A stretch of 34,526 bases of DNA from a virus. Position numbers and translations under genes: made by a program. This document shows, in pieces, positions 6,831-31,708 of this stretch. The notes under the pieces are model-generated. The model made no database searches, had not been told where the DNA came from, and was given only the letters and a program-made list of their open reading frames with translations. The stretch lies in IMG/VR virus record IMGVR_UViG_3300028563_000052, positions 1 through 34,526 of that record. One strand, written 5' to 3'. Numbering within the stretch: the stretch's first letter is position 1; each line of letters opens with the position of its first letter.

Positions 6831-6970
6831 GAGATCGCAGCGACAACTACCCGGATTTCTTCTATAAGCAGCCGGAGCCTTCCATCAATGTGACGACGGT
6901 GGAGTACGATCTCACCGATGAAGAGATGGCGGACTTGAATGCTTGTATCGAAAGGAACCGGGACAAATGA
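6827..6970 (+). CDS. Small hypothetical acidic protein
   Basis: The product has 47 residues. The start is chosen because AAGGAGG (6815-6821) lies five bases upstream of the ATG at 6827; a longer in-frame reading from 6749 would begin inside the previous gene without such a site. The N-terminus is charged and aromatic (RDRSDNYPDFFYKQPEP). A short strand (INVTTVEYDL) and one acidic helix (TDEEMADLNACIERNRDK) follow. The stop TGA overlaps the start of the thioredoxin gene. No family is recognised. Confidence 0.65.
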   Translation: MRDRSDNYPDFFYKQPEPSINVTTVEYDLTDEEMADLNACIERNRDK

Positions 6971-7284
6971 TCACCAAAGTCGACAAAATACCTGTAAAAG
7001 GCGCAGTGCTGGTCGATTTCTACTCCCCTACGTGCGTTCCTTGTAAAGTCATGGAACGTGTACTGGAAGAAATTGACGCACAGGGCCTTAAGACCCGTGC
7101 CGGAGAGCGTTTGAACATTGTCAAGATCGATGTAACAGAAGGCAACGAAGCCCAGCGGTGCGGCGTGATGTCGGTGCCGACGCTGGTGTACCTGGTCAAC
7201 AACATCGTCAAGGAGTCCGTTGTTGGATTCCCGGGCAAAACGGCTCTTGACAAGGGGGTAGCACGATGGCTGACTACCGTTTGA
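6967..7284 (+). CDS. Thioredoxin-like protein with CVPC active site
   Basis: From the ATG at 6967, which overlaps the upstream stop in ATGA style, the product has 105 residues, the size of a single thioredoxin domain. It shows VLVDFYSPTCVPCKVME with the redox pair C23 and C26, IVKIDVTEGNE as the central strand, and the cis-proline loop SVPT (P71). The catalytic turn is CVPC instead of the classical CGPC, which may shift redox potential or partner choice. Likely roles are supplying electrons to a ribonucleotide reductase, which is not in this window, or reducing disulfides in a phage or host target. A polymerase processivity role as in T7 is not supported because the polymerase lacks an obvious binding insertion. 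AAGGAA upstream is the likely ribosome site. Confidence 0.88.
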   Translation: MITKVDKIPVKGAVLVDFYSPTCVPCKVMERVLEEIDAQGLKTRAGERLNIVKIDVTEGNEAQRCGVMSVPTLVYLVNNIVKESVVGFPGKTALDKGVARWLTTV

Positions 7285-7574: not shown

Positions 7575-7758
7575 ATGCCTTTATTACTACCCATTCTCGG
7601 CACTCTGCCGGCGTTATCCGCCATCGACGACGGACATCCTGGTCAACAAGGAGACCTGGTGGTGTGGGGAATTCAAAGAAATCGGACCGAAGGGCAGAGC
7701 AACACCCGTTGTGCCCCACACGGCAAAACTCAAACCTGAACTGGAGGATCTAGTATGA
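7558..7758 (+). CDS. Cys-rich mini-protein, probable zinc ribbon/knuckle
   Basis: The product has 66 residues. Four cysteines (C4, C7, C17, C36) are arranged C-x2-C-x9-C-x18-C, the spacing of small phage zinc-binding proteins. The surrounding aromatic pattern (CLYYYPFSALCRRYPP and TWWCGEF) is typical of the same group of phage mini-proteins. Metal binding is inferred from spacing alone. The C-terminal third is basic and Pro-rich. AAAAGGAGG precedes the ATG. The gene overlaps the 3' end of its upstream neighbour, and its stop overlaps the GroES start (ATGA). Confidence 0.75.
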   Translation: MRTCTECLYYYPFSALCRRYPPSTTDILVNKETWWCGEFKEIGPKGRATPVVPHTAKLKPELEDLV

Positions 7759-8093
7759 CCCCGTTGAAAGATCGCGTAATCATCAAATGTGACCAGATGG
7801 AGAAGACCACCAGGGGCGGCATAATCATCCCTGACACCGCCACCGGCATCCGCCGCGACCGCGGTACCGTGATGGCGGTAGGTAAAGGTGAATGGCTGTC
7901 GATTGCCGGCCGATACCGGGAGCCAGAGGTGAAAGTCGGCGACCGCGTTCTGTACAGTCACGTTGCCGGGGTGTTCATCGATGAAGAAAAAACGATGCTC
8001 AACATTCGGGAATGCGACATCATTGCCATCGTCGACGACGAGGTCACCATGACCCCCAATCCCTACAACGGGCATGCAAGGGACGTGGCATGA
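7755..8093 (+). CDS. GroES-like co-chaperonin
   Basis: This 112-residue protein aligns in pattern with GroES (Cpn10). It begins PLKDRVIIKCDQMEKTTRGG and continues IIIPDTA, which contains the mobile loop (about residues 16-27) with the hydrophobic GGIII tripeptide region that docks on GroEL. RGTVMAVGKG, VKVGDRVLYSHVAGVFIDEE and the final strand RECDIIAIV follow. It should form a heptameric lid for the host GroEL chamber, as phage T4 gp31 does to fold its coat protein. About 15 residues beyond the normal C-terminus (TMTPNPYNGHARDVA) are extra. It lies in the early operon, far from the coat gene. No GroEL gene is visible in the window. Confidence 0.9.
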   Translation: MTPLKDRVIIKCDQMEKTTRGGIIIPDTATGIRRDRGTVMAVGKGEWLSIAGRYREPEVKVGDRVLYSHVAGVFIDEEKTMLNIRECDIIAIVDDEVTMTPNPYNGHARDVA

Positions 8094-8512: not shown

Positions 8513-9835
8513 TTACTTTTTCTTCGGCGGTTTTGGAAACTCCGTCGTTATGTGCGTGCTACCGTCAGAGCTGTTGTACCAAAACATTCTGCCCCGGCCG
8601 AATTCATCATCGGTAAAGCCTTTGTGCACGATATCGCTGCCATGGGCTGATTTGGCCTCTGCAATGAGTCGGTCGTCGATGGGAGCTGTACGGGCTGCAT
8701 CCTCTTTGAGTTTCTGAGATACCGATTCCATGTATTCCCGGTTGGACTCGGTAGCGGCCGCTGCGGCTTCATTATCCGCTTTGGCATTCTTCATGTAGTC
8801 CACTTTATCCAGTAGACGCTGGGTGGGGCTGTTGATCGGTATTATGCTCTCCGGGGCCCTGTATCCCTCCTGATGCATTTCCACGACCTTGTTGTATGCC
8901 TTCTGGTTCTCGTACCAGGCTTGCCGTGCCCACTCAAGCTGTGCGTCACTGGCATGTGCCGGTTTTGGCAGGCCGAGATATTCCGATACCGGCTCGTTCT
9001 TCGAACCCGGTGACGGATCGAGCTTCACCTCATATGCAGGCTGCGCCGTTGACCGGCCGCCGCCTTCAAGCGGGCTATACTGTTCGATGGTAGAGAGAGA
9101 GTGCTGCTGACGCATGTCAGGCTGCCGAAGCATTGCCATATCATGCTCCCGGCTGATGGCGCCTCCGCGCCCGGGGCCACCCTCGGTATTCGGGGATTGC
9201 TCGGTGTACCCTTCCACATGGGTGTCTTCAGGCACTTGGGCATGTTTCAGTTCTGCCGCTTCTATCTGCTCGGCCGGAGCCTTTTTCGACGGCATGAGGC
9301 CTTTGAGTTTATTCAGCGCTGTTTGAACGATTTCGTGCATGCCGGCAGACTTTGCCGCGTCAATGCCCAGTTTGGCTTCTTCACCTTCACCGCCGGCAGC
9401 GTTGGCAGGGTCGCTGGCCATCATAAGAATGGCTTCGAGACCGCCCATGACGTGTTTCGACAGGTTCGGATTTTTTTCAGTCCAGCCGTTCTTTGTCACA
9501 TAGTCATCAAAGGCATCAGCGAGCGGCTTGAGCAGGTAGTCCTTCATGGTTCCACCACCGGCATCCAGCGAGGCGTCTGCGGACTTATCATCGCCCGTAG
9601 AGCGAAGAATGGCCTGGCTGATTCCTTCTCGGATTTGGGCGAGAGCCTGGGACGGCACATGCAACAGCGTTGACGGACGCTGGTACTCATACTGAGTTGG
9701 TTGATTGGTCACGTCAGCAGGCTGTATGCCCCCAATTTTGTCAAGGGTGTACGGTATGCGTCCGGAGGGTTGCGACGGTTCCGCAGTAGCAGTTGGTGCG
9801 GAGTAGGGGGCATCGATTTGGCTCAGTGTCGGCAT
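8513..9835 (-). CDS. Probable virion-associated protein of unknown function
   Basis: The product has 440 residues with no recognised domain. It starts MPTLSQIDAPYS, closely matching the start of the presumed ejection protein at 15159-16775 (MPTIGQIDTNQIS). The first 60 residues are Pro, Gln, Thr and Ala-rich and probably disordered. Residues about 95-190 are helical with an Ala-rich section (LEAILMMASDPANAAGG). A Gly/Pro/Glu-rich linker follows. Near residues 300-390 lies a long charged, Ala-rich helix (NAKADNEAAAAATESNREY). The C-terminus is compact and basic (RGRMFWYNSSDGSTHITTEF...KKK). Composition and its late-operon location suggest an internal or ejected virion protein. Its ATG overlaps the stop of the 38-residue gene upstream (TAATG). 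Confidence 0.7.
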   Translation of the reverse strand: MPTLSQIDAPYSAPTATAEPSQPSGRIPYTLDKIGGIQPADVTNQPTQYEYQRPSTLLHVPSQALAQIREGISQAILRSTGDDKSADASLDAGGGTMKDYLLKPLADAFDDYVTKNGWTEKNPNLSKHVMGGLEAILMMASDPANAAGGEGEEAKLGIDAAKSAGMHEIVQTALNKLKGLMPSKKAPAEQIEAAELKHAQVPEDTHVEGYTEQSPNTEGGPGRGGAISREHDMAMLRQPDMRQQHSLSTIEQYSPLEGGGRSTAQPAYEVKLDPSPGSKNEPVSEYLGLPKPAHASDAQLEWARQAWYENQKAYNKVVEMHQEGYRAPESIIPINSPTQRLLDKVDYMKNAKADNEAAAAATESNREYMESVSQKLKEDAARTAPIDDRLIAEAKSAHGSDIVHKGFTDDEFGRGRMFWYNSSDGSTHITTEFPKPPKKK

Positions 9836-9951
9836 TATTTGTCCTCTCGAAAGTAAACGTTGAACCGGTCAAGAATGAACCAGACGCACAGAAGAGTCAG
9901 CACGCCTGTATCGACGAGATTTGCATAGAAATCGGAGCAAAAGAACTGCAT
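9835..9951 (-). CDS. Tiny predicted membrane protein (38 aa)
   Basis: Reading leftward, ATG at 9951 starts one base after the homospermidine synthase stop and ends at a TAA that overlaps the next ATG. It encodes 38 residues, including a hydrophobic stretch NLVDTGVLTLLCVWFIL (11-27) and a charged tail RFNVYFREDK. One transmembrane helix with a positive/negative cytoplasmic tail is likely. It exactly fills the 118-base gap between two genes with tail-to-head coupling, which supports it being real. There is no strong ribosome site, only a weak GGCAG. A holin-like or regulatory membrane peptide is possible. Confidence 0.5.
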   Translation of the reverse strand: MQFFCSDFYANLVDTGVLTLLCVWFILDRFNVYFREDK

Positions 9952-9952
9952 G

Positions 9953-11548
9953 TTACTGCCTGTCGAGAAAATTCTCGAACCGCCAGATGTGCTTCTCGTC
10001 AGGCTCGCACTCCTTGCGTTCCGGGAAATAGTTCGTGTTATTTTTCACAGGTGTCCATTCATATTCTTTGCTGATGAATGTACCCAGGTATGGTTTCGCA
10101 ATTTTGAGAATGTACTCCTCTGGAATGTCTTCCGGATTCAGAATGCCCTCGTTTGGGTTTTCAACCATATAGCAAATCGCGGCAGTCACTCCGATGGCGA
10201 CTTGCACCGATGTGGCATTCTGCAAAGGAGCCAGTTTACGTGCGGTTTCGATATCGAGTGACGACCCACACCACCAAACGTGCTCATCGTCGTACCCGCC
10301 GATCATGATGCCGAGCACGTCAGAACCGTATTCGATTTCGTTTTCGTAGGCAATGCGTTGCTGGCAGAGAGGCTTGTAGTCGTTTGCCCGCAACTCCCAA
10401 AGACTGGCGACCATTGCATCACAACCGTGGTAGCAATAGTATACAGTCGGGCGATATTGCCCGTCTTCCGTGGTCAGAAAATCACTGATGGTGTACGCCT
10501 CCCCATGGCGGATAAGGGTGCCCATTATCTGTCCATCGGCGCTAATGGCGGCTGTCTTTTCATCCCCCTCTTCATCCTTATAGTCGGCGTCAACCGGCGG
10601 CGGAACGAAACCGCGTACACGGGTATTCATCCCCATTGTATGCAGAAAAATCTGGTTTTTCGGGCCGTGCTCCGGTATCGTTGCGTCAACTGGCGGCTTG
10701 CCTTCATGGGTGCCCCAGCCCAATTCGGCGGGGCTTGTGGCCTCTTCCAGAAGACCGCAGCATGACCAGGTGTTGACGAATTCGCCGCTTTCACGGGGCC
10801 GGGTCATGCGCTGAGTATCTCTCTCAGTATCGATAACGACTTTGACTTTCAGTTTGCGGGCGAGCTCGGCATAAGAGCCGTCGAACTCAACCTTTTTCTT
10901 CTTCGCCAGATCCCGCAGACCCTGCTTCATGAATGCACTGATCAAGCCGGGATTTGCACCGAATTCGAGCACTGCGGTGCACTCTCCACCCTTCCATTCG
11001 TGCATCACGGCATCGAGTTCCTGTCGACGGGCATAGAGTGACTTTTCTTCGGCCGAACGCTCATCGAATCCGTCGGTAAAGTCCCACTCCTCGATCGACG
11101 TGTTGACATATAAGACCTCGTTGTCACGGCACCACTGCAAAATTTCGATGCAACTGATGTCGTACGCCAAGTCGATGCAGAGGTCGCCTGGTTCGAAGTG
11201 GTCTTCCATGAACTTTTCGAAGTTGTCCGGGAGAACCTGTTCCTGCTCAAAAGTGCAGCCAGCGTCGATCCAGTTCTGGATGACTTTGCGTCTGTCCAGC
11301 ATGTCGACCAATACGACCCGTGACAGGTCGAGATCGAGGTGCTTGACGAGCATAGGGAACATGCACTCCCACACGCTGCCGAGGCCGATGCAACAAACGT
11401 CGCCTTCGAACTTCGGCTTGACCTTGGCGATCGGTGCCGGATTGGCAATAAGCTGCGGTTCTTCTTCGCCCGCGTGCCCATTGTTGACCATTTTCACCTT
11501 CGCCGTGGACAAAGACGGCACTTCATGTATATCAGAAAGTTTTGGCAT
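9953..11548 (-). CDS. hss: Homospermidine synthase (saccharopine dehydrogenase-like fold)
   Basis: This 531-residue protein matches bacterial homospermidine synthase throughout. It has the NAD-binding start CCIGLGSVWECMFPML (52-67), YVNTSIEEW (147-155), EFGANPGLISAFMKQ (195-209), FVNTWSCCGL (257-266), PAELGWGTHE (273-282), YYCYHGCDA (370-378), GIMIGGYDDE (413-422), QNATSVQV (443-450) and the C-terminal PYLG...W...F..ENF signature. The enzyme uses NAD+ to make homospermidine from two putrescines, or putrescine plus spermidine. The glycine motif is GLGSVW, lacking the usual third Gly. About 50 residues precede the Rossmann fold, more than in cellular enzymes, and begin MPKLSDIHEVPS. AAGGAG (11553-11558) precedes the ATG. 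It sits in the late operon after the tailspike. Length and motifs suggest it is intact. Confidence 0.92.
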   Translation of the reverse strand: MPKLSDIHEVPSLSTAKVKMVNNGHAGEEEPQLIANPAPIAKVKPKFEGDVCCIGLGSVWECMFPMLVKHLDLDLSRVVLVDMLDRRKVIQNWIDAGCTFEQEQVLPDNFEKFMEDHFEPGDLCIDLAYDISCIEILQWCRDNEVLYVNTSIEEWDFTDGFDERSAEEKSLYARRQELDAVMHEWKGGECTAVLEFGANPGLISAFMKQGLRDLAKKKKVEFDGSYAELARKLKVKVVIDTERDTQRMTRPRESGEFVNTWSCCGLLEEATSPAELGWGTHEGKPPVDATIPEHGPKNQIFLHTMGMNTRVRGFVPPPVDADYKDEEGDEKTAAISADGQIMGTLIRHGEAYTISDFLTTEDGQYRPTVYYCYHGCDAMVASLWELRANDYKPLCQQRIAYENEIEYGSDVLGIMIGGYDDEHVWWCGSSLDIETARKLAPLQNATSVQVAIGVTAAICYMVENPNEGILNPEDIPEEYILKIAKPYLGTFISKEYEWTPVKNNTNYFPERKECEPDEKHIWRFENFLDRQ

Positions 11549-11557
11549 GGATGCTCC

Positions 11558-13393
11558 TTATTGCGGCCAGTTCACATTTTTGTGTGCGATGATGAGTTCA
11601 TACTGTCCCCCTGCCGCAATCGGATCATACGGGTGAAACACGATCTGCCCTGCTTGGCAGATGACCTCCAAAAACCCTCCCGCAGTGCTGTAGTACCGAG
11701 GAAGCATAATGCGGTCACCGCCGGCAAGAATCCAGGTCGCAGAGAGAATGACAATGTTAGTTTGGTTGTAGCCGGACGGGTATGCCACGTTCGTGTCCCC
11801 GGTGTTGAGAGACCCTGTCAATTTTTGAGTGTAGTTGTCATTCACCGTATCGGGGACGTTATCCCGACAAATGTTGTGCGTTCCAGCATTCGCATTGTTG
11901 GTAAAAGTGGTGATCTTATTCCCGGTGATAACACAGTTCTGGGCAGTAGCAGCCAACGTAAGGCCGGCAATCAAGTTGCCGTTAACCACTGCTCCGTTTG
12001 CCGACGAACCGATTGTCAGGGTGCTTCCGAACGTATTATTACTCAGAATGGAGGAGGTCGCCCCATAGTTGCATGGCTGTGAGAAATTACAGCTGTAGAA
12101 ATTGTTGCCGGGCTGCCCGAGAACGATGATGCCCCCGTTGGATATGATATTCCGGAATGTCATATTGTATGATCCGTTGCTCATAGCTATACAGTGGGAT
12201 GTTCCCCCGGGAGTGGTTTGTGTGAGGTTCAGATCTTGCATTAACACATCGTGCACTGCTACTGAGTCTGCCCACATGTCGCCAAAATCGCTCAACTGAG
12301 TGATAGTAGTGTATGTTCCGGCGCCTTTGATTGCCACACCAGTTGCAAAGCTTAGACCGCTTCCAATTGCATATTTTCCGGTGTTTCCCCCGTTGAGCTT
12401 AACGGCCACGTTGCCGAAGTACACACCCAACGAAGCGGATGCTGTGAAGATGGCGGCACTGATTGCTGCGGCATCGTCAGTTGTGCCGTCAGCTTTCGCG
12501 CCAAACCACTCCGGAAGAAATTCCACCGGAGATGTCTGCGTGGCATTCGGAGATGACGCATCATGAAACTGAATGTGGCTGCCTGCTCCGCCGGTGGTCA
12601 CATCGAAATGGTATGAATGGTCATTTGGCTGAATAACCGGGTTGCAAACAAGTTTGAATGCAACCGGTTGAAGTACCGCACCAACGTCCATATACAACGG
12701 GATGTAATCTATGGCCGGAGTAGATGTCAGTTTATACGTCCCAGGCGGGGCATAGATGGGCAATTTGGGGGAAAGCCCGTTGGCACCGGTCACCGCAGCC
12801 AGAAAAGCCAGTCGATCATCGGTAGCGCCGTCCCCTTTCGCGTTGTACCACTTTACGTTTACCTTGTCCACGACAAAGCGAACCCACCGACCCAAGGACA
12901 GGTACCCCGTCGGCTGAATGAACATGCCCAGATCGTCACTGGCGGCGGTTGCGCTGCTCCAGTACCACCAACCCTGACCGCCGTCGCCAACATAGCTCAC
13001 TCCATCGACCCACACAGCCTGACCATTGGACACCCCAATTACATTGCGAAGATCGGTGACCAGATTAGCGGTGAACCCCGAAATGGCGGATTGAGTGTAA
13101 TTATCGTTTTCCCATATGACGCTGCCGCCCGAATCGGTCAGAATGAACTTGTACGACACGCCGGCCGTCAACCAAATGATCGGCACCGGGTTGCCGGAAC
13201 CGTTGGTCGGGAATCCGCCTGCGTTGAGCACGATAGGATTCGTGAACGGGGTTGCCCCGAGAGGGTCTTGATACGACGGCAGCTGAGCCGTGTTACCGGC
13301 GCCGGCCGCATATGTGTAAAACAGGCCGCCGTCGAGCGGCACGCCAAGATCATCGAATGTCCGATTCAGAAAGAACGGGCTATAAGTTGCCAT
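11558..13393 (-). CDS. Tailspike with virion-adaptor domain and two pectate-lyase-like modules
   Basis: The product has 611 residues. The N-terminal 100 residues resemble the widespread tailspike head-binding adaptor: SPFFLNRTFDDLGVPLDGG, then LFYTYAAGAGN, FTNPIVLNAGGFPTNGSG and VSYKFILTDSGG. Two beta-helix entry motifs follow, KWYNAKGDGATDDRLAF (181-197) and EWFGAKADGTTDDAAAI (295-311). Asn-rich coils typical of a right-handed beta-helix occupy 350-510, and a beta C-terminal domain ends the protein. Such trimeric spikes bind and often cut surface polysaccharide; catalytic residues cannot be placed from sequence alone. It follows the third ejection-type gene, as the tailspike follows gene 16 in P22. 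AAGGAG precedes the ATG. Confidence 0.88.
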   Translation of the reverse strand: MATYSPFFLNRTFDDLGVPLDGGLFYTYAAGAGNTAQLPSYQDPLGATPFTNPIVLNAGGFPTNGSGNPVPIIWLTAGVSYKFILTDSGGSVIWENDNYTQSAISGFTANLVTDLRNVIGVSNGQAVWVDGVSYVGDGGQGWWYWSSATAASDDLGMFIQPTGYLSLGRWVRFVVDKVNVKWYNAKGDGATDDRLAFLAAVTGANGLSPKLPIYAPPGTYKLTSTPAIDYIPLYMDVGAVLQPVAFKLVCNPVIQPNDHSYHFDVTTGGAGSHIQFHDASSPNATQTSPVEFLPEWFGAKADGTTDDAAAISAAIFTASASLGVYFGNVAVKLNGGNTGKYAIGSGLSFATGVAIKGAGTYTTITQLSDFGDMWADSVAVHDVLMQDLNLTQTTPGGTSHCIAMSNGSYNMTFRNIISNGGIIVLGQPGNNFYSCNFSQPCNYGATSSILSNNTFGSTLTIGSSANGAVVNGNLIAGLTLAATAQNCVITGNKITTFTNNANAGTHNICRDNVPDTVNDNYTQKLTGSLNTGDTNVAYPSGYNQTNIVILSATWILAGGDRIMLPRYYSTAGGFLEVICQAGQIVFHPYDPIAAGGQYELIIAHKNVNWPQ

Positions 13394-13395
13394 TT

Positions 13396-15177
13396 TTACT
13401 CCTTATCGATCGTTGACATGAGTTTTCTGCCTTTGGATTTCAGGGACTGACCGGCACCATACAACGCTCTGGCGGTGGAAGGGCTCTTGCTGATCACGTT
13501 TGCCACCGGCAACGCCAGGGACAATCCATGCGTTGCTGCCGCGTGCCCTACCGCCATGCCGAATCCTAAAAAGTCGTCAAGGCCGATGGGATTCTTCCGG
13601 CTCTCTACAAGAATTTGTTTCCGTGCAGCACGTTCCATGGGAATCATTTCAGACAGCTGTTTGTTGAGCTCTTTGATCCCGGGTTTACCCTTATTTTCCA
13701 ACTGCGTCTTCAGTTCGTCATAGAGCGCGTTGTAGAACGAGGCTTTATTCGTGGCATTCTCGTTTGCCATCATTTTGCCGTTGTGCTCGAGCCAATCGCC
13801 GTGCCCTCCGATCTCCTGCTTCAGCAATTGCGCTTCAGCGAGATCAACGTTATTCTTTATCGCGGGTGCATGCGCAAAATCGAGCCCGTATGTGAATTCA
13901 AGCTCACTGGAAACATCCTGCGCAACCTTGTCCATGGCCAGACGATTGAGACGGGTAGTTCCCGCCACTTTCTGTTTGGCGGCGTTGACCGCTTGCGCAA
14001 TGTTGATGCGGCTGCTCGGATCGGCTGCGTCGAATTCAACGGACTGAATTTTCTCCCGAAGCTGTTTCGCCACGTCTACGATTTTAGATTGCCACTGGCT
14101 CTGAACTTGAGATGCATTGCCGAATACGCCGTATTTCGAATACATAGCGTTCGTGGCGCCTTTAGACATCTCGGGGGAGTTGATCTTTACCTTTGTCCCC
14201 TGAATACGGGCAGCCATGTTCTCCGCCGTCTGTCCGGCGCCGGTTAATGCGTTTCCCGCTACATTGGATGCTGTTTCCGGGGCATCCCTAAGGGCACCCG
14301 GTATCGCTTTCACTACGCCTGGGGTGGCCTTTATTGCTTTTGCAGTCACATTAGCGGACACTTCGGCTACTTTATCCAGTGCAGCAAACATTGATTTGGT
14401 GGCGGCGCCCGCGGGTATGATTGCCGCCCCCAGCTGCGCAAAATTCCCGACAGCGTTGGCTGCATTTGATATTCGTGGGTGCGCTGCGGCAAACTTGTCG
14501 GCGGCATCTGCCAGGTTGTCCACCAGCTTCTTCTCACCGGGTACCCATGTTGGCACTTTTGATAACGCCTGCAGGCCTTCACCTGCATAATGTTCTGCCG
14601 TCTGAACCGCTTGACCCATGTTACTCAACACCGGTGTGTTTCGGGTAGCATAGATTGCCTGATTCAGTGCCTTACCTGGCAGGTTGGCCAGGTCTTTAGC
14701 CGCAGTGCTATATTCATTGAGCTTCGTTTCCGCGGGGGTCTCACCAGCGGCGTGCGGCACCGGGCTGGTTTGTGCGAACTCCGGATAGTGCGAATTGAAT
14801 GCCTTTGTGATCTCATTGGCGGAGTTCAAGTCACTATTTTGAAAAGCCCGCATAACGCTGTTTGCATAATCCTCGGGTGACCCTGGAGCGGCGTCTCTGT
14901 AAGGCACCGCTCCGGTGAACAGCACTGTGGCATGCTGCATCAGTGCACCTGGTTTAACCTGAATGGGCTGTTTCTCGGCTGCCGATAAAGCAGGCTTGCC
15001 CACAACGATCGGTTCAGAATGGGGCACGGGTTCAGAGTGTGGCCATTTCTGCGGTATCGCGGGGGAGTGCGGCACCGTGGTGTCACCAGCCATTTGCTCA
15101 TCCGTCATTGGATGAATCGCATCAGGGGCAACCGCCATCTCCGCATCGGTCATCGGCTTTATTTCGGGGGCTGCCAT
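13396..15177 (-). CDS. Putative DNA ejection/pilot protein (gp16-position)
   Basis: The product has 593 residues. The N-terminus carries two copies of PMTD(A/E)(E/Q)MA (8-15 and 23-30), a short motif also seen at the front of other phage internal virion proteins. The protein is rich in Ala, Lys, Gln and Asn and mostly helical. Hydrophobic Gly/Ala segments near residues 235-265 (NAVGNFAQLGAAIIPAGAAT) and 555-575 (GMAVGHAAATHGLSLALPVA) could insert in membranes during genome delivery. The order gp7-like, Gln-rich coiled-coil protein, this protein, spike repeats the P22 7-20-16-9 order, so it occupies the gp16 slot. Similarity to gp16 itself is not evident, so the role rests on position and composition. 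Its start overlaps the upstream gene by 19 bases. Confidence 0.65.
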   Translation of the reverse strand: MAAPEIKPMTDAEMAVAPDAIHPMTDEQMAGDTTVPHSPAIPQKWPHSEPVPHSEPIVVGKPALSAAEKQPIQVKPGALMQHATVLFTGAVPYRDAAPGSPEDYANSVMRAFQNSDLNSANEITKAFNSHYPEFAQTSPVPHAAGETPAETKLNEYSTAAKDLANLPGKALNQAIYATRNTPVLSNMGQAVQTAEHYAGEGLQALSKVPTWVPGEKKLVDNLADAADKFAAAHPRISNAANAVGNFAQLGAAIIPAGAATKSMFAALDKVAEVSANVTAKAIKATPGVVKAIPGALRDAPETASNVAGNALTGAGQTAENMAARIQGTKVKINSPEMSKGATNAMYSKYGVFGNASQVQSQWQSKIVDVAKQLREKIQSVEFDAADPSSRINIAQAVNAAKQKVAGTTRLNRLAMDKVAQDVSSELEFTYGLDFAHAPAIKNNVDLAEAQLLKQEIGGHGDWLEHNGKMMANENATNKASFYNALYDELKTQLENKGKPGIKELNKQLSEMIPMERAARKQILVESRKNPIGLDDFLGFGMAVGHAAATHGLSLALPVANVISKSPSTARALYGAGQSLKSKGRKLMSTIDKE

Positions 15178-16775
15178 AATCCGTTTTTATCCTTTGTGAA
15201 GGTAATCGACTGTCCGTTGATAACCCGAACTCGAGTAGCGCCGACCGGTTCCCCTTTCAGAATGTGCAAAGTGTCCGACAGTACCCCTATGTTGCGGTTA
15301 CGACCCGTTATCCTATCAAGATCCTCGGCGGCCGCCTTTTGCCGGGGATCTGCGGGAGCCTCGGGCGCCGCCGGAGCTTCGGGCGCCGCCGGAGCTTCGG
15401 TAGTGGACATAACCACCCCCGTCATCTTTGCCCAGCGATCCGGATCGGATTCGATCAGCGGTGAGTACTTGCCGTCAAGAAACGCCCCGTGTTTGGAAAT
15501 TATTTCGTTGTCTACTTTCTTCACGTCTCTCACAATGGACAACAGCTTCTGCTGCGTTTCCGGTTCTCCCAGTGTCTGAGGGCGACTGAGAACATGCTGT
15601 AAGAAGCTCGCGGCATCCTGCCCCAAGCTGGTGAACATGCCCTTCTTGAGCTCCTCGGCATGGGGGGCTCCGCCTTGAAATATTCCCTGAAGGTCAGTGG
15701 TAACCACGGTTTTCTCATCGGTCGTCCACTGTCCCGCTGGTTTCTGCAAGATCGTGAGCGCACGGTCGGCACGCATGTTGTTGATGGTTGCCTGACCAAC
15801 GGCCGTACGGGATGTCGCAGAAAGATTGTCGAGGTCTTTACCTGCCTTCTCCCATTCACCCTGTGCCTTCTCCGGAGTGTAACCTTTAATGGGTTTGAGA
15901 CCCGAGGGCCATTCACCACCGGCTTTGGTCGCTTCGACGGCCTTGTTATGCCGTTGTTCTTCGTTGAATTTCTTCTGCTCCAACTCATCTTTCTTTGCCT
16001 GCTCTTCATGCTGGAATTTGCGTTCCTCGGCAGTCATCGCCATGTTGACCAGGGGCGTGTTGGCACGCTGTTGCTCGATGCGGGTCTTTGCACCGATCTG
16101 CTGAGTGCCCCACATGTCGAGGAATCTCTGCAGTTCGGGAGTTTTGGTGCCATCGAGCAGCTCTGCCGGTATTGGCGGCATGTTGTTCTGGATGTCTTGT
16201 GCGTTTTGTCCGCTGCCGGGAATCGCGGCGAGTGCTCTGGCGTGGTTGTACAGATCAACTTTCTCCGAAATGTCCCCGGTGTTCTGAATGGCAAGAGCCT
16301 GATCCTCGTAGAACCCATGAATGCGATCGACGTGATCATTGTAGAAGGTTTGTGCATCACCGGCGAGCTTGAAGGCCTTGTCGCCCATGCCGGCCTTCTG
16401 AAGATTCTGCAGATATGCCTGCGGCTGAAAGGATCCAGATTTCGGGTCAAACGATGACTTAAATGCATCATTGATTGCCGACTGCTGGCGCATAGGCTCG
16501 GTAGCGGTCAGTGTGTTGATCTTGGACTGCAGAGATGCGCCCGAGGTTACCACCTTGGCGTTTAAGCCGGCCCAGTCGTAAGAGCCGTCCGGCTTTTTCA
16601 GGCTGGGATCTTGCGAGATGTTAGACAGCGTGCGCTGGTCGTTCATCGACTGCTGCATCTGCTGGTTTTGCATGTTCTGATTGCGAATGCGGTTGCCCTG
16701 TTCGACATAGTCGAGCACGTTGGTTCCGCTGCCACCCGAAATTTGATTTGTGTCGATCTGTCCGATAGTAGGCAT
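15159..16775 (-). CDS. Putative DNA ejection protein, Gln-rich coiled coil (gp20-position)
   Basis: The product has 538 residues, beginning MPTIGQIDTNQISGG. Residues 25-55 are Gln/Asn/Met-rich (GNRIRNQNMQNQQMQQSMND). A charged coiled coil occupies about 250-290 (EERKFQHEEQAKKDELEQK). Near the C-terminus lies an Ala/Pro/Glu repeat (STTEAPAAPEAPAAPEAPAD) before a small end domain. High Gln and Ala content and its place between the gp7-like and gp16-position genes match P22 gp20, which leaves the capsid with the DNA. The start codon overlaps the stop of the gp7-like gene (TAATG). The function is inferred from order and composition. Confidence 0.68.
   Translation of the reverse strand: MPTIGQIDTNQISGGSGTNVLDYVEQGNRIRNQNMQNQQMQQSMNDQRTLSNISQDPSLKKPDGSYDWAGLNAKVVTSGASLQSKINTLTATEPMRQQSAINDAFKSSFDPKSGSFQPQAYLQNLQKAGMGDKAFKLAGDAQTFYNDHVDRIHGFYEDQALAIQNTGDISEKVDLYNHARALAAIPGSGQNAQDIQNNMPPIPAELLDGTKTPELQRFLDMWGTQQIGAKTRIEQQRANTPLVNMAMTAEERKFQHEEQAKKDELEQKKFNEEQRHNKAVEATKAGGEWPSGLKPIKGYTPEKAQGEWEKAGKDLDNLSATSRTAVGQATINNMRADRALTILQKPAGQWTTDEKTVVTTDLQGIFQGGAPHAEELKKGMFTSLGQDAASFLQHVLSRPQTLGEPETQQKLLSIVRDVKKVDNEIISKHGAFLDGKYSPLIESDPDRWAKMTGVVMSTTEAPAAPEAPAAPEAPADPRQKAAAEDLDRITGRNRNIGVLSDTLHILKGEPVGATRVRVINGQSITFTKDKNGLWQPPK
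15361..15396. repeat. Two perfect 18-bp tandem copies coding for Ala/Pro/Glu repeats
   Basis: The unit tcgggcgccgccggagct is repeated exactly at 15361-15378 and 15379-15396. A decayed copy lies to its left. On the minus strand it encodes the APAAPE hexapeptide of the ejection-type protein. It keeps frame, so slippage would change linker length without breaking the gene. Confidence 0.9.
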
Positions 16776-17656
16776 TATGGATTCCCTCCCTGACCGTACC
16801 CGCCGCCATATGCGCTCGGATTGTACTGGTAGCTGCTGAGATTACTCAGGCTCAGCCCCGTGACTCCGGTGCCGCCTGATGACGACGAGTATCCAAGCGG
16901 CTGAGACGAACCGCTCGATGTCTGCGCGGCCGGAGAACCTTGCTGATTTGAGGTATCTCCGAGCTTCATTTGCCCGATTTGCTGTAGATGTGCACCTTGC
17001 TCATCGGCTGCACTCTGTGCTCCTTTGATGCCCGCAGCATGCACGTTCCCGAGCTGAAGATTCAGATTTGTCATGTTCTCGCCGTACCCGGTGTCGAGAT
17101 TTGCCAAAGCGTTTGAGTTGCCCTGTCCAAGCTGAGTCTCCCACTCCCCGAGGCCTGCGTTCGTGTTAAACGACGATAGAGCCCGATTGTAGGCGTTCTG
17201 GTAGCTGGTGCCGGCAAGTTGCTGGTTGAAGTAAGACATGGCCTGCGCCGTTGCGCCGGACGTTCCCAGGCCCTTTGCAAAGGCACTGGCGTTGACGCCA
17301 GCTTGCCCCTGTTGCAGCTGGAACTGGTAACCTGGCTCGTTTTGGAGGTCTTGAGGGTTGAAGGAGAAATCTCCGATCCCACTCAGCCGTTTGACGCCCA
17401 TCTGACCAACGGCTTGGTAGGGCTGTAGTTCACCGGTAGCCTTATTGTAGCTGGTAGTGAGGGCGTCCATGCCTTTATGGATGGCCGTATCCTCCTGTTG
17501 CGTGGCAAGATACGATCCCAGGTAGTTGGCTATATCCTGTTCTGCCATGCCGCTTATGCTCATAGCGTTGCCGCCTGCTGAGCTGCCACCGCCGCCTCCC
17601 GATGACCCGCCAGAACCGCCGATCATAGAAGTTATCGAACTTACGTCAAATGCCAT
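16775..17656 (-). CDS. P22 gp7-like DNA transfer (ejection) protein
   Basis: The product has 293 residues. It shows the pattern of phage DNA-transfer proteins: an early helix with GELQPYQAVGQMGVKRLSGI (76-95), then NEPGYQFQLQQGQAGVNASA, GLGTSGATAQAMSYFNQQLA and SYQNAYNRALSSFNTNAGLG. A Gly/Ser-rich N-terminus (SMIGGSGGSSGGGGGSSAGG) and a Gly/Ser/Tyr-rich C-terminus flank this core. In P22, gp7 is packaged in the head and ejected with DNA into the host envelope. This is the best recognised of the three ejection-type proteins and anchors the assignment of the two that follow. An extended -10 promoter lies just upstream, and a weak GAGG site precedes the ATG. Confidence 0.85.
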   Translation of the reverse strand: MAFDVSSITSMIGGSGGSSGGGGGSSAGGNAMSISGMAEQDIANYLGSYLATQQEDTAIHKGMDALTTSYNKATGELQPYQAVGQMGVKRLSGIGDFSFNPQDLQNEPGYQFQLQQGQAGVNASAFAKGLGTSGATAQAMSYFNQQLAGTSYQNAYNRALSSFNTNAGLGEWETQLGQGNSNALANLDTGYGENMTNLNLQLGNVHAAGIKGAQSAADEQGAHLQQIGQMKLGDTSNQQGSPAAQTSSGSSQPLGYSSSSGGTGVTGLSLSNLSSYQYNPSAYGGGYGQGGNP

Positions 17657-24294: not shown

Positions 24295-24888
24295 TTAAAC
24301 CGTCGTCAGCGTCCGAAGTACACGGGCGCGAAAATATGCTTTGTTATCCGTGCTGCAGCGCATCTCGAGGCCCATGGTCGGCGTTGCGTTGCTGTCTGCC
24401 TCGTTCCACGATCCAACCTGCTGCCAGTTACCCGAGGTGCAGTTGTAATAACCAGTCACGTGCCAGGTGTTTGCGAATGACCAGTCGGTGGCGTTGCCGG
24501 TCATCGATATCGTCACGTCGAACGCCCCGACTGTGGCGATATTCAGGTTGCCCAGTTCAATCGTTGCCCCGGGATATGCAGATGTAAATGACCGGGTAAA
24601 GTCCTGCACGCCAGGGCCCTGAATGCCGGTCTGACCCTGTATACCCGTTGCACCCTGAATGCCCTGAGGCCCTGTTGCACCCTGAATCCCCGGGGCGCCC
24701 TGGATGCCCGTCAGACCCTGTATACCCTGAAGCCCCGTTGCCCCTTTGTCACCCTGGATGCCGGTACCGCCGGATATACCGGTGTCGCCTTGAACCGGCT
24801 TATTGCGAAACCAGTTTGCCCATACAGGGCTGACCAGTTGTCCGGATACGATCGGTTCTTGTACAGGCACGGGAGAATAGGGTTTCAT
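24295..24888 (-). CDS. Collagen-like fibre protein, possible needle or short fibre
   Basis: The product has 197 residues from ATG 24888, which overlaps the upstream stop (ATGA). A GTG at 24894, four bases after GGGAG, is an alternative giving two more residues. The N-terminus (residues 1-33, with [14 protein letters not shown]) looks like a virion anchor. Residues 34-93 are 20 uninterrupted Gly-X-Y triplets, mostly GIQ, GAT and GLQ, predicting a collagen-type triple helix. The last 100 residues form a beta-rich tip ([19 protein letters not shown] and on). Three-stranded stalk plus tip suits a trimeric fibre. It lies where P22 has the gp26 needle, downstream of gp10, so it may replace it. That is inference. 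Confidence 0.82.
24610..24789 (-). repeat. Collagen-type Gly-X-Y coding repeat
   Basis: Twenty in-frame nine-base units encode G-X-Y triplets, and many occur as 18-base near repeats (for example ggcatccagggt-like units read on the minus strand). Such arrays change length easily by slippage while keeping frame. Confidence 0.85.
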
Positions 24889-25535
24889 GCCCACGTGTCT
24901 CCCTTATGCGTGAAATACGTGTGCGGTACCATGCCGATGTCCGGTGACAGCATGGAACGGATACCCGGCCACACGATGCCCGGCAACTGGTTATTGCTGT
25001 TCAGATACGGCCATATGAACCCGTGACCGCGGTCAATTGCGTCGGTGTTCCGCTCGAACTTCACCCACTGATGAAACCATTCAGGTTTGCCGTTGGTGTA
25101 GATGATACCGACATCGACGAACACGACCTTCATCTGGTTGAAACAAGGCTTGTTCGCCGGCAACGGTATATCCAGTATCGACACCATCATGTCGGTGTCG
25201 AAGTACGCAGCCGTGGGATACTGGCCACATAGCCACACTCGGGCGACGTCTGACATTGCAATGGTCGCGAATTCGTCGCCGCGGTAATTGACCGCTTTTG
25301 TATTCTTCGCCCGCATCCAAATCCTCTTGGCGTGCTCATCCTGCATGATAGCCTGTTCCACTTCATCAAGCGTCATCGTGGTAGGAAGGTCTGCAACAGA
25401 CTTTTGATCACTAACAATATGATGACGATGCCCGCCAGCCATGGCAAGCTCGTGAGTGTGATCAATACAAGCCTTTCGCATTTCATCGAGAGGCCTTTCG
25501 CCGAAGTGAATGGTTATGACATCAAGCGTTTTCAT
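24885..25535 (-). CDS. Glycosyltransferase with DXD motif (GT32/sugar-binding type)
   Basis: The product has 216 residues. The core [20 protein letters not shown] followed by DTDMM matches the 'SD..R...L...G..Y.D.D' signature of DXD-type sugar-binding transferases (PF04488-like). The putative metal-binding D113-T-D115 follows a hydrophobic strand. The start ([20 protein letters not shown]) matches a Rossmann-like nucleotide-sugar fold entry. The C-terminal portion has conserved Trp and His residues ([10 protein letters not shown]). It probably transfers a sugar from a nucleotide-sugar donor. It sits between the lysozyme and the collagen-like fibre gene, so virion glycosylation is one possibility. 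It overlaps the lysozyme gene by 14 bases and has only a weak ribosome site, suggesting coupled translation. Confidence 0.75.
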
Positions 25536-27523: not shown

Positions 27524-28252
27524 CTATCCCGTAAGAATATTTGGAAACCCGATTTGACGACCCGTCAACGCGAAATCGATGCCGGCGATGATTGGCTCTT
27601 TAGCGTTGACCCTTTTGATTGACGCCATGTACTTGGCAGCCATGGCATCTACGCGACCCATGACACTCGCCGGAGGGTTATGCCCGAGTGACGGCAACAG
27701 CTGGGCAAGCCCGAACTGCAGCGCCAGTTGATACCCTGGAGGAAACGACACGTCATCCGTGAGAGCCTTGAAAGCGCTCACCTGTGACCACCGCGTAAGG
27801 TTGAAGTACAACGGGATGGTAGGATACGGAAAGAACGTAAACGTTGCATTCGGGTATGATGGTGTATACAACGCCAGATATGGGTATGTGCTGGTCACCG
27901 ACTTGAGCATGATCTTCTGATACTGCTCATTGGTCACCAGAGCGATGTTGTAGTCTACTTTGTTGTTCGGGTCACGGGAGTCGCGGGCGAACATGCTGTC
28001 AATTTCGACAGGCCTTGGTCCAACCCAATCCGCGCCGGCACCCTCGCCGATTGTATACACACCCTTGCCTCCAACCATCTGATACACATCCGTGACCAGC
28101 TGGAAGCAGGCGTATTTCTGATTGTTCCACTCATCCAACATGCTGTTGAGCAGAGTAAATGCCGCAGCAGCTTCAGCCGCCTGAAGGTCGTCGGAGACCG
28201 CCAGGGCGTTTATGGATCGCTCGGCTGCGACTATCAAGTCCAACACTTTCAT
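27524..28252 (-). CDS. P22 gp4-like tail accessory (head completion) protein
   Basis: The product has 242 residues. It shows the gp4/connector pattern: AAEAAAAFTLLNSMLDEWNN near the start, VYTIGEGAGADWVGPRPVEI then DSMFARD, a TNEQYQKI segment, PNATFTFFPYP and a conserved DVSFPPGYQLALQFGLAQLL. In P22 gp4 binds the portal ring and completes the head. P22 gp4 is 166 residues; longer forms are usual in non-enteric phages. GGAGG lies seven bases before the ATG, and the start overlaps the glycosyltransferase stop (ATGA). The gene is followed by gp10, as expected. Confidence 0.88.
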   Translation of the reverse strand: MKVLDLIVAAERSINALAVSDDLQAAEAAAAFTLLNSMLDEWNNQKYACFQLVTDVYQMVGGKGVYTIGEGAGADWVGPRPVEIDSMFARDSRDPNNKVDYNIALVTNEQYQKIMLKSVTSTYPYLALYTPSYPNATFTFFPYPTIPLYFNLTRWSQVSAFKALTDDVSFPPGYQLALQFGLAQLLPSLGHNPPASVMGRVDAMAAKYMASIKRVNAKEPIIAGIDFALTGRQIGFPNILTG

Positions 28253-29187
28253 ATCTTGACCTCCGGGCGACCTTCTTTGAATGTTTCGTTAAGCAATCCA
28301 ATGGGAGACTGTACAACACTGATTGCCCGCATGAGGGGCTCCACGTTTTCCCGGGCGATATTCGAACTCTTGTGGTCGTCATTTGCCTCGGGGCATTCTG
28401 ACGGCTTGTTCTCCATGTTCCTTATCATATCGAACGGCATGGTTGTCTGGGAACCACAAGTCTCCATGGAGGCAAACAGATCCTGAACCAACTCCGTGGG
28501 CGACTTCTGAGCCATCAGGAACTCATGGTAGTTGCCTCTGAACGTGTGGCGACCGGTATGCTGCATACTGAGGTTCGGCTCGAGCCACACTTGAATCTTG
28601 TCCTGGTGACAATACTTACAGAATGCCGTGTCTTCGCCCCACCATTCGCGGCTGCCAAACAGGAAGCCGGTCTGGAAGAACTTCCACTCCACATCCCCCG
28701 TGAGAGCGTCTTTGCCGATCATCGACGGATGCTTTTCCATGAACGTGTTGAACACGGTACGATTGATGCGCAGCAGGCCTGTGGGCACCATAGCGGCATA
28801 GATAAGACCGGTGTCGGGATTGAACATAGCCTGAAGCTGATCGTTGCAATGCACCGACACCGGGTAACCGACTTCTTCTGACTTGTAGGGGTATGCCGCG
28901 CCGACGACCTGGACGTCATGGCTGAGTAGCTTCAACAGGGCGTCGGGCGGAAACCCGACGTCACTGTCAATGAATATCATGTCCATGCAATCCGAAGCAA
29001 GAAAGCGCTTGACCAACGCATTACGCGCCTGGCAGATATAGGGATCGCCGGGCTTGTCGGCATAGGTAACATCCCAGCCGGCATCCGCGAGCGTCCGCAG
29101 ATTACTAATTAAGCTGCTGACCGTAGTGCAATCAATCGAACCCGTTCCCGCCGGTATGGCGAGAAACACTTTCTTGTTACTCGGCAC
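28249..29187 (-). CDS. GT2-like glycosyltransferase
   Basis: The likely start is GTG at 29187, five bases after GGGAGG (29193-29198), giving 312 residues. Upstream in-frame codons overlap the preceding gene without a ribosome site. The sequence shows KKVFLAIPAGTGSIDCTTV, FIDSDVGFPPDALLKLLSHD with the DXD motif D74-S-D76, VVGAAYPYKSEEVG and a WWGEDTAFC acceptor/catalytic region with the 'GED..FC' pattern of GT2 enzymes. A Cys/His pair (CKYCH) follows. It is placed between a head protein and the gp4-like gene, an unusual location that hints at glycosylation of a virion protein. Its stop overlaps the next start (ATGA), so its expression is coupled to virion genes. Confidence 0.82.
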   Translation of the reverse strand: MPSNKKVFLAIPAGTGSIDCTTVSSLISNLRTLADAGWDVTYADKPGDPYICQARNALVKRFLASDCMDMIFIDSDVGFPPDALLKLLSHDVQVVGAAYPYKSEEVGYPVSVHCNDQLQAMFNPDTGLIYAAMVPTGLLRINRTVFNTFMEKHPSMIGKDALTGDVEWKFFQTGFLFGSREWWGEDTAFCKYCHQDKIQVWLEPNLSMQHTGRHTFRGNYHEFLMAQKSPTELVQDLFASMETCGSQTTMPFDMIRNMENKPSECPEANDDHKSSNIARENVEPLMRAISVVQSPIGLLNETFKEGRPEVKI

Positions 29188-29200
29188 AGCCACCTCCCGG

Positions 29201-29455
29201 TTAAGCAGTGAGACCAACACCCGATGACGTGCTGAGCACAGCAAGGATGCTGGTCACAGCTGCCGCAAGGTCAGTCGTGCTGGGAGTCGTGGTCAGAGCC
29301 GTGATCGCCGATGCCTGCTTAACGGGTGTCGAGCCGGTGTAAAAAGCGATCTTTGTGTCGGCAAACAGTCCGCCGTCTGCGAGCTGATTACCAACCTGTT
29401 CCTGAAGAGTCGTGGTCAGGTAGAGACCCACGTTTGAGGACGAAATGTAACTCAT
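29201..29455 (-). CDS. Small head-associated protein candidate
   Basis: The product has 84 residues. It is rich in Ser, Thr, Ala and Leu. The end (STTDLAAAVTSILAVLSTSS, GVGLTA) resembles the C-termini of phage head-fibre or decoration proteins, which finish in similar 'DLAA.(V/I)..ILA.L...G..A' helices. The first half predicts helix and strand (YLTTTLQEQVGNQLADGG). AAGGAA at 29464-29469 precedes the ATG. The gene follows the coat gene across a hairpin, where decoration proteins are often encoded. A decoration role is tentative. Confidence 0.55.
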   Translation of the reverse strand: MSYISSSNVGLYLTTTLQEQVGNQLADGGLFADTKIAFYTGSTPVKQASAITALTTTPSTTDLAAAVTSILAVLSTSSGVGLTA

Positions 29456-29519: not shown

Positions 29520-30809
29520 TTATACTGCGAGGTAGAGACGTGCCGCCCATTCGGGACGGATCATCGCCTTACCGTACAGTGCATCGAAACGGCTCAGCTG
29601 ACGACCGTTGGTGATGTCACCGTTTCTCCAGTAACGGAGAGACATGCCATCATAGTCGGCACGCTGCATCTTACCCTGGTTCGGCCACACGGGCAGCTTC
29701 ACCATGGCCAAGGCCGCTGCAGTCTGGTGCAAAAGCACGATCTGCGCGTAAGCGGTCGACGGTGCACCCGTGAACGTGCAAAGCGCGGTGTTCTGGGGAA
29801 GCCCAGACACGTTCTGCAGTCCGAGGGATGTTGAGGAGTAGATTGCTCCGCCGTTCACGAACACGTTGACGCTGACGCCACCTGCAGTGAGAGTGTAGGT
29901 CTTCGTTGACGCAGAATATCCGTTGGCTCCGTCCGTGCCTTCCTGCACAACGAACTGAGCGAGCTGACCTGTGGAGGCCTTCGTCTCAGGGTTGACAGAG
30001 TAAACAGGGTTGGATGCCGTTGTGCCGATGGTGAACACGTCGCCGACGACCACGGTCTGGCTCGCGTTCTTCAGTGTCAACGCTGTTGCACCTTCGGTGG
30101 TGATTGTCGCACCGACGGTCGTTCCTGATGCGGCAGTGCGGGTACCCGTGGTCATGACGGGCATGTTCTGATCCATGTACCACGACATGCCGTGAAGTGT
30201 CGACATCCGACCTTCCTTGAAGATCTTTCCGATATCAGCCTGCGGGTTGAACTGCAGCGTGTACTGCCCGGCGAGATATGACTCACCGATCGAACCCATG
30301 ACAAGGCTGATCTTGTCATCCACGGGAACGAGCGCATCGTTCATCTTCCGCTTGCCTTCGAGGATCGACTTGGTCTGCGTTGCGGCAGAGGTCGTGTCGA
30401 TCAACGATGCGTTGGCGATGGTTGTATACATCCCGGCGAGGTCACTGTCGACCTGGCTCGCGATGGTCTTCCCCATCGGCTCAGCATAGCGCTTCTCATA
30501 GTCATCGACCAGGAGAGCCTCTTCGCTGTCGTAGAACTCGGAGTCAATACCGATCTCGGTACCGACAGTCAACGCTGTGGATTGTTCGGAGTGGGCCTGC
30601 ACCTGCATGGCAGTTCCAGTACGCACGGTGTACTTGTTGGGCAGTCTGATCTGCAAGGTCTTACCGATCTTGCCAGACATCGACTTCGAAGAGTTCGCAA
30701 ACTCTTCACCATAACTGCGGTCGACCGCTTTGGCGAAGCGGATCTGCGAATGGGCGACCATCAGGGGAATCCTGGTGATCTCGCTGGGTTGGAGAAGACT
30801 ATTGGACAT
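29520..30809 (-). CDS. Major capsid (coat) protein, P22 gp5 type
   Basis: The ATG at 30809 has AGGAG seven bases upstream and gives 429 residues, almost exactly the 430 of P22 gp5. A longer in-frame reading from 30857 would begin inside the scaffold gene. The P22 coat signature includes SEITRIPLMVAHSQIRFAKA, VDRSYGEEFANSSKSMSGKI, IGIDSEFYDSEEALLVDDYE and SQVDSDLAGMYTTIANA. A beta-rich insertion (about 220-330) with GDVFTIGTT and VYSVNPETKASTGQLAQF corresponds to the I-domain. The end WRNGDITNGRQLSRFDALYG followed by KAMIRPEWAARL is typical. It builds the T=7 head with the scaffold encoded just upstream. The phage GroES could assist its folding. Confidence 0.95.
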   Translation of the reverse strand: MSNSLLQPSEITRIPLMVAHSQIRFAKAVDRSYGEEFANSSKSMSGKIGKTLQIRLPNKYTVRTGTAMQVQAHSEQSTALTVGTEIGIDSEFYDSEEALLVDDYEKRYAEPMGKTIASQVDSDLAGMYTTIANASLIDTTSAATQTKSILEGKRKMNDALVPVDDKISLVMGSIGESYLAGQYTLQFNPQADIGKIFKEGRMSTLHGMSWYMDQNMPVMTTGTRTAASGTTVGATITTEGATALTLKNASQTVVVGDVFTIGTTASNPVYSVNPETKASTGQLAQFVVQEGTDGANGYSASTKTYTLTAGGVSVNVFVNGGAIYSSTSLGLQNVSGLPQNTALCTFTGAPSTAYAQIVLLHQTAAALAMVKLPVWPNQGKMQRADYDGMSLRYWRNGDITNGRQLSRFDALYGKAMIRPEWAARLYLAV

Positions 30810-30823
30810 GATAAAACTCCTGG

Positions 30824-31708
30824 TTATGCCGGAATGAGACCGCGCTTCTTTTTCCATCGAATCGCGTATTCTTCATCCGTCTCGACATGATTGTTTTCAG
30901 TTTTCCCCGGTGTCGTCTCTGCGACGGGAGCGGGAGCCCTCGACGTTGTTGGCTTACGAACAGCTGGCGCAGCAGTATCATTTTCCAACAACGCTGAAAT
31001 TCTACCGAGTTCCCTGCTGATACGATTCGCCGGCAGAGCATTGATACGCTCGACCACGTCTTCGTGTGTCGCGAGATAGTACGCGACGGCTGCAGGGTTA
31101 TCTTCCTCACGGATGCCGTGGAACAGAGGTTCGCTCAGCTCCATGTCGTCAAGAGCCTTGACGGCAGTGTCGTAATCCGTGTGTGCCCGTTTGAATTCAG
31201 CAATGTTGTTCGTGATCTCCTGGTTGCGGCGTTCCACTTGCGCGACACGCCGGCCTTCTGTTCTGGCCTCCTCGATCTTGTGCTCAGTCCACGCTGCCAT
31301 TGCATCGTCGTACTGGTCGGAGGTTGAGAAATCGTTACGCTTTGGACGATCAGTAACCGTCTGGCGCTGCTCAGTCTGGGTTTGTCCACCCTTCTTCAGT
31401 TCTGTGAGTTGCTCCTCAAGAACCTTGGCACGTGCCCGGGCTTCAGCGCGTTCACGCAGGAGCTTCGAGTACTGGCGGTCTGCCCGATTGGGCTGCCTTT
31501 CGGTCTCGACTTTCTCTTTGTCAACTTTGGACTCATCAGTCGTTTCGGTCTTCGATTCAACAGGTCTCTCCTCGGTGGTGACTGCCGGGGTTTCCACCTT
31601 GTCAACGGTTTTATCCGTTGCCGGTGTCGACTCCGTAGTCGCTACTTTGGCCTGTTCGACGGACGTGCCTTCAGTAACATCGATCTTGTCAAGGTCTGTT
31701 CTGTCCAT
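30824..31708 (-). CDS. Scaffolding protein (P22 gp8-like)
   Basis: The product has 294 residues; P22 scaffold has 303. It is highly charged. The first 75 residues are Thr/Glu/Lys-rich and disordered (VETPAVTTEERPVESKTETT). A coiled-coil region then runs about 78-170 (YSKLLRERAEARARAKVLEE). A basic C-terminal helix (EEYAIRWKKKRGLIPA) suits the coat-binding helix-turn-helix of scaffolds. Its place between portal and coat confirms the assignment. It would guide procapsid assembly and then leave, and in P22 it also recruits the portal and ejection proteins. A GGAG site precedes the ATG. Confidence 0.88.
   Translation of the reverse strand: MDRTDLDKIDVTEGTSVEQAKVATTESTPATDKTVDKVETPAVTTEERPVESKTETTDESKVDKEKVETERQPNRADRQYSKLLRERAEARARAKVLEEQLTELKKGGQTQTEQRQTVTDRPKRNDFSTSDQYDDAMAAWTEHKIEEARTEGRRVAQVERRNQEITNNIAEFKRAHTDYDTAVKALDDMELSEPLFHGIREEDNPAAVAYYLATHEDVVERINALPANRISRELGRISALLENDTAAPAVRKPTTSRAPAPVAETTPGKTENNHVETDEEYAIRWKKKRGLIPA

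Follow-up and report, generated by a model that had tools for sequence, protein, structure and literature searches.

A predicted homospermidine synthase with a phage-only N-terminal extension recurs in the virion modules of three tailed-phage lineages

Homospermidine synthases of phages and other viruses

Phages need polyamines. Polyamines are present in phages R17 and T4 (PMC7226272), several phages depend on spermidine, and two phages, Ralstonia phage phiRSL1 and Achromobacter phage Motura, are already known to encode a homospermidine synthase (HSS), that of phiRSL1 being reported as active (PMC9992855). The chlorovirus PBCV-1 has an HSS that is active and is reported to be virion-associated (PMC7019647, PMC9992855). 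Polyamines neutralise only ~0.2% of the phosphates in the PBCV-1 virion (PMC7019647), an argument against simple bulk neutralisation there.

The system described here resembles phiRSL1 and PBCV-1, the latter a eukaryotic virus, in that the virus itself encodes an HSS, a likeness that we draw from the published reports and not from sequence; chloroviruses encode a fuller pathway than our phages do. The Motura enzyme is ~31–35% identical to ours, has no N-terminal extension and is encoded outside the structural modules, beside a glutathionylspermidine synthase, and models of the giant-virus enzymes of Hyperionvirus and Tupanvirus are 24–27% identical. In the literature on homospermidine and auxiliary metabolic genes we found nothing beyond PMC9992855. 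A separate HSS clade in ordinary-sized phages, recurrent in virion modules and carrying a phage-only extension, thus appears to be new, as we did not find it described.

Enzyme family, active site and substrate

The window, by which we mean the whole 34,526-nucleotide stretch of viral DNA analysed, contains a 531-residue gene with an ATG start at positions 9953–11548 (minus strand, as are all window genes below unless marked +). An earlier note had called its product an HSS on the strength of sequence motifs, all of which are present in the translation, and the PDB chains matched by sequence were exclusively HSS (E from 1.4e-80 to 1.7e-69). Both halves of the saccharopine-dehydrogenase-like fold were matched in Pfam (Sacchrp_dh_NADP, 5e-19; Sacchrp_dh_C, 4e-19), and no family in PHROGs or NCBIfam matched the protein. 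Its AlphaFold model (pLDDT 91, pTM 0.92) aligns with B. viridis HSS (BvHSS) at a target-normalised TM-score of 0.92, against ~0.68 for carboxyspermidine dehydrogenase and a range of ~0.66–0.70 for that enzyme and lysine dehydrogenase.

We mapped the key BvHSS residues given in PMC4725965 and PMC8489232 onto the window protein. The catalytic and substrate residues D94, E117, N162, E210, W229, E237, H296, E298, Y323 and D361 are all kept in the window protein, whose D130, E153, N199, E242, W261, E269, H348, E350, Y371 and D410 are invariant in all 12 phage proteins of the set described below. The earlier note had listed loss of active-site residues and a better match to another dehydrogenase family as findings that would speak against an HSS; none of the substrate and catalytic residues tested is lost, and the fold favours HSS. 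We rejected a carboxyspermidine or saccharopine dehydrogenase identity on the far lower fold scores, the HSS active site and the uniformly HSS matches in the PDB. The bacterial enzymes of known structure (B. viridis, 4PLP and 4TVB; L. pneumophila, 2PH5; P. aeruginosa, 6Y87) have the same fold, domain order and NAD site and all catalytic and substrate residues in common with the window protein; they differ from it in overall identity (~35%) and side-pocket residues, and they lack the N-terminal extension and an insertion around residues 319–339, both of which only the phage enzymes have. In a comparison of the window gene with L001, the relative nearest to it, pN is 0.14 and pS is 0.89, reported in place of dN/dS because synonymous sites are saturated, and HSS is under strong purifying selection. 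As judged from its sequence and predicted structure, the gene product is an apparently intact HSS.

The Rossmann motif GxGxxG reads GLGSVW in the window, with the first two glycines in place and Trp at the third. The earlier note had counted this loss as an oddity; the loss is real, and it is less odd than was claimed, as this position in 79 cellular relatives is Ser in 42, Ala in 23 and Gly in only 11. A bulky Trp or Phe at this site (W60 in the window, 11369–11371, minus strand) was found only in the window, L001 and L009, which form lineage A below. In the side pocket, the positions of V115, Y123, N135, L138, Q240, T295 and N297 are not as in BvHSS, and the changes relative to that enzyme are T295R, S236E, L138R, N135L and Q240S. 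Most of these changes are common to ~80 cellular relatives, so they mark a subgroup and not a defect of the phage enzyme. We know of no requirement for the side-pocket residues in the reaction, nor of any assayed member of this HSS subgroup.

The earlier note had seen no putrescine-forming decarboxylase in the window, and the putrescine-forming families PF02784, PF01276 and PF00491 were indeed not found there. None of the five families that we sought (these three with PF02675 and PF03738, covering ornithine/arginine decarboxylase, agmatinase/arginase, AdoMet decarboxylase and glutathionylspermidine synthase) had a match in nine phage records, which are possibly incomplete. We therefore rejected a polyamine pathway within the phage, and putrescine must come from the host.

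The nearest cellular relatives among the matches listed are HSS-like proteins of Omnitrophota, Methanoperedens and methanogens, which are 44–49% identical to the window protein, have the same side-pocket residues and form the nearest group in our tree; they differ in having no extension and in that an ornithine-decarboxylase-like gene, lacking from the phage records, is often next to theirs. In this closest subgroup, an ornithine/lysine-decarboxylase-like gene often directly follows HSS, and the order of HSS and then a gene with a decarboxylase motif holds in part of the subgroup (Omnitrophota, Margulisbacteria and methanogens). One such neighbour matched lysine/ornithine and ornithine decarboxylases best in the PDB (E 6.5e-79 and 4e-68). 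We scored adjacency to HSS in place of the presence of PF02784, because that family includes diaminopimelate decarboxylase and its occurrence in 29 cellular genomes is uninformative alone. The decarboxylase beside the cellular HSS supports putrescine as the substrate, by gene association.

An improbable alternative is that the protein, although homologous to HSS, differs from it in substrate or product; it might, for instance, use another diamine or an acidic second substrate held by the extra side-pocket arginines. Such an enzyme would account for T295R, L138R, S236E and Q240S relative to BvHSS and for the resemblance of the cellular neighbour decarboxylases to lysine/ornithine as well as ornithine decarboxylase. 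However, the catalytic and amine-site residues are all those of HSS, the fold resembles HSS much more than it does carboxyspermidine dehydrogenase, and the adjacent decarboxylase is no carboxynorspermidine decarboxylase (nspC scored 19.6 bits, the cut-off being 409).

Position in virion operons of three phage lineages

In the window, HSS lies near the end of an operon that encodes a P22-type portal protein (31711–33849; PHROG 156, E 9e-94), a P22-type major coat protein (29520–30857; Pfam PF11651, E 2e-15), a 293-residue DNA ejection protein (16775–17656; PHROG 598, E 3e-14) and two probable ejection-type proteins. The first of these, of 538 residues (15159–16775), is assigned from BLAST and position and is conserved in L001 and L009 (BLAST E 1e-21 and 2e-29); the second, of 593 residues (13396–15177), is assigned from position and sequence alone and has a duplicated N-terminal motif (PMTDAEMA/PMTDEQMA). 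Directly upstream of HSS is a 611-residue tailspike-like gene (11558–13393; Pfam PF12708; PHROG tail spike/EPS depolymerase). The earlier note had placed HSS between this tailspike and a 440-residue ORF (8513–9835), the last gene of the virion operon; this is correct, save that a 38-residue ORF between HSS and the 440-residue gene (9835–9951, found by eye) was overlooked. The 440-residue protein has no family match in Pfam or PHROG, and its N-terminus is similar to that of the ORF at 15159–16775.

The tailspike gene ends in ...CAATAAGGAGCATCCATG, and the segment 11549–11565 holds both its stop and a ribosome-binding site, AAGGAG, which overlaps the stop region and lies five bases 5' of the HSS ATG. 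The gene thus has its own ribosome-binding site and a spacing that fits operon membership, and from the position of AAGGAG the N-terminal extension is very probably translated.

Several further features of the window were observed. The 38-residue ORF has one hydrophobic stretch (MQFFCSDFYANLVDTGVLTLLCVWFILDRFNVYFREDK), and its stop overlaps the next start (TAATG). Glycosyltransferase-like ORFs without a Pfam match lie within the virion operon (24885–25535 and 28249–29244), and a run of similar-looking genes lies between terminase and portal in lineage C (L122, 6969–13656). The early cluster encodes a thioredoxin (6943–7284, +) and a GroES homologue (7755–8093, +); a GroES-like gene adjoins HSS in L001, and Motura too has GroES. 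In P22-like phages, the last ejection-type protein opens with a short duplicated motif that is different in each phage. The motifs, each present twice, are PMTDAEMA in the window (13396–15177), EYDALLSVDT in L001 (4027–6072), IVYDTP in L009 (7611–9923), DLASPV in L016 (4046–8755) and SGPWEKYA in L126 (12126–13664).

Scans of viral contigs yielded 12 distinct full-length phage HSS, the window included, at 52–81% identity, and one partial sequence (L018). The contigs come from metagenomes and are possibly fragments; three pairs of entries are the same contig (L001 and L008, L002 and L010, L003 and L011), and the near-identical L016 and L017 were counted as one. In a tree of 95 HSS proteins, built by a quick method with no bootstrap and with a midpoint root, the 12 phage proteins group together as a single clade (SH-aLRT 100) with a long stem (1.02). 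The Omnitrophota/methanogen group lies beside this clade, and the enzymes of Motura, Legionella and B. viridis fall elsewhere.

The carriers fall into three lineages. Lineage A (the window, L001 and L009) is P22-like, with the order portal, P22-type coat protein, DNA ejection protein, two more ejection-type proteins, tailspike and HSS; in L009, HSS directly follows the ejection-type proteins. In lineage B (L003, L004, L005, L012, L014, L015 and, more distantly related, L010) the terminase gene precedes those for portal, minor head protein and HSS; next, on contigs that extend far enough, come a protein in the scaffold position and the major capsid protein. Neck and tape-measure genes are also present in L012, and HSS precedes the minor head protein in L010. 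Lineage C (L013 and L016/L017) runs from terminase through a distantly P22-type portal, structural-type genes and a 1569-residue internal-type protein to HSS and a large fibre-like gene; family matches back the terminase and portal calls only. HSS therefore lies among head, ejection or tail-fibre genes in all three lineages. The earlier note had proposed a search of related phages for the same gene at the same locus, and because the gene recurs in the structural modules of three lineages, HSS is tied to particle genes more strongly than that note could see.

HSS is the sole window protein clearly common to lineages B and C, the other match being a helicase at ~21–22% identity. A portal query found seven lineage-B contigs, all seven of which carry HSS, and L126 and L127, which are more distantly related to the window, keep the same order through the tailspike and then have no HSS. 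That the gene is shared by otherwise near-unrelated lineages and missing from L126 and L127 indicates that it entered separate phage lineages. Because the virion modules of all three are large, agreement by chance would be fairly frequent, and position alone is not strong proof of a role. It is very improbable that the protein has lost catalysis and now serves as a structural component of the particle: such reuse would fit the location among virion genes and nothing else, and the active-site residues are invariant in the 12 phages despite their divergence.

We rejected naming a host, as the nearest named phages are P22-like podoviruses at ~30% identity, which is too distant. Extension-free HSS genes also occur on two more viral contigs, one of 424 kb (L099, 3538–4920; L102, 9977–11263), with no recognisable structural genes around HSS in either.

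The phage-only extension and the role of the enzyme

The N-terminal extension of ~50 residues noted earlier is real. From alignments and pLDDT it spans about residues 1–48 (11405–11548, minus strand) and is confined to phages: the distance from the start to the Rossmann glycines is 48–98 residues in the 12 phage HSS and typically ~10–20 in cellular and Motura-type enzymes. All 12 have an extension with a conserved core (consensus PNxSxExVxLVxNGxxGExEPQLPAxPAPIA), which is absent from ~80 cellular relatives among the matches listed; a longer upstream start is possible in a few cellular ORFs, but the sequence there is unrelated. Outside the ~80 examined there could still be a cellular HSS that has the extension. 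We rejected the extension as a portable module, because the viral-contig scan and a profile HMM run over 13,159 ORFs of all fetched loci found it on these phage HSS alone (next match, E 1.4).

In the models, the extension core sits firmly on the enzyme body (pLDDT ~88–90) and the residues before it are mobile; in the window model these are residues 1–14, and the remaining extension is docked. The outer part is not conserved from lineage to lineage, and in L003, of lineage B, a helical hairpin on a linker is predicted within it. As modelled, a docked strap with a free helix would fit a role in stabilising the enzyme, in regulating it or in docking it to a virion partner.

The gene is probably a late-expressed, enzymatically competent HSS of the virion operon that serves the packaging phase. 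This reading is built on computed features: the fold and family of the protein, its active site, the purifying selection on the gene, its place in the operon, the recurrence of that place in three lineages, and the extension. From these we infer that the enzyme is active, that it is made late and that its product is used in packaging or in late translation. HSS would be made together with the virion proteins and would take host-made putrescine as its substrate; one molecule would be oxidised with bound NAD+ and ammonia released, and the oxidised product would be coupled to a second putrescine and then reduced to sym-homospermidine. Homospermidine made late would raise or replace the polycation pool during DNA packaging and virion protein translation. 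Several points speak against this account: co-location with large virion modules in three lineages could be partly chance; the side pocket is changed (T295R, S236E, L138R), and lineage A has Trp or Phe at the third glycine; and in PBCV-1 polyamines are too scarce for genome neutralisation.

It is also possible, if rather unlikely, that HSS is itself a virion component, with its extension bound to the head or ejection apparatus and the enzyme packaged, to enter the next cell with the DNA and make homospermidine at once, like other internal phage enzymes. HSS is encoded at or near genes for the head interior or head exit, namely ejection-type genes in lineages A and C and portal and minor head protein genes in lineage B; the confinement of the extension to these proteins, the mobile predicted hairpin in lineage B and the reported virion association of PBCV-1 HSS (PMC7019647) point the same way. 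However, in the models the extension core is packed against the body of the enzyme and so may only stabilise it, the outer part of the extension varies between lineages, and the extension was found on no other virion protein. A packaging tag common to HSS (MPKLSDIH) and its 440-residue neighbour (MPTLSQID) was rejected, since 0.7 such pairs are expected by chance. As a separate observation, the N-terminus shared by that neighbour and the protein at 15159–16775 (MPTIGQID) has a chance expectation of 0.006 and is perhaps a packaging signal of internal proteins.

A broader version, to which we give slightly less credence still, is that HSS genes of a phage-specific clade pass, as virion genes, from one tailed phage to another unrelated one, and that the extra N-terminus loads the enzyme for ejection with the DNA. 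If true, the virion would supply the next host with a functional polyamine synthase.

The phage HSS genes known so far belong to jumbo phages, and in Motura, the one that we examined, the gene is remote from those of the particle. The three lineages described here consist of phages of ordinary size, and each carries, within the virion module, an HSS whose N-terminal part is confined to phages. Two old questions thereby become testable: do phages produce a polycation specifically for packaging, and can a tailed phage carry a metabolic enzyme as virion cargo, in the way that PBCV-1 is reported to carry its HSS? Recurrence and the phage-only front end suggest, from sequence, that the polyamine may be made for new particles or that the enzyme may travel with them.
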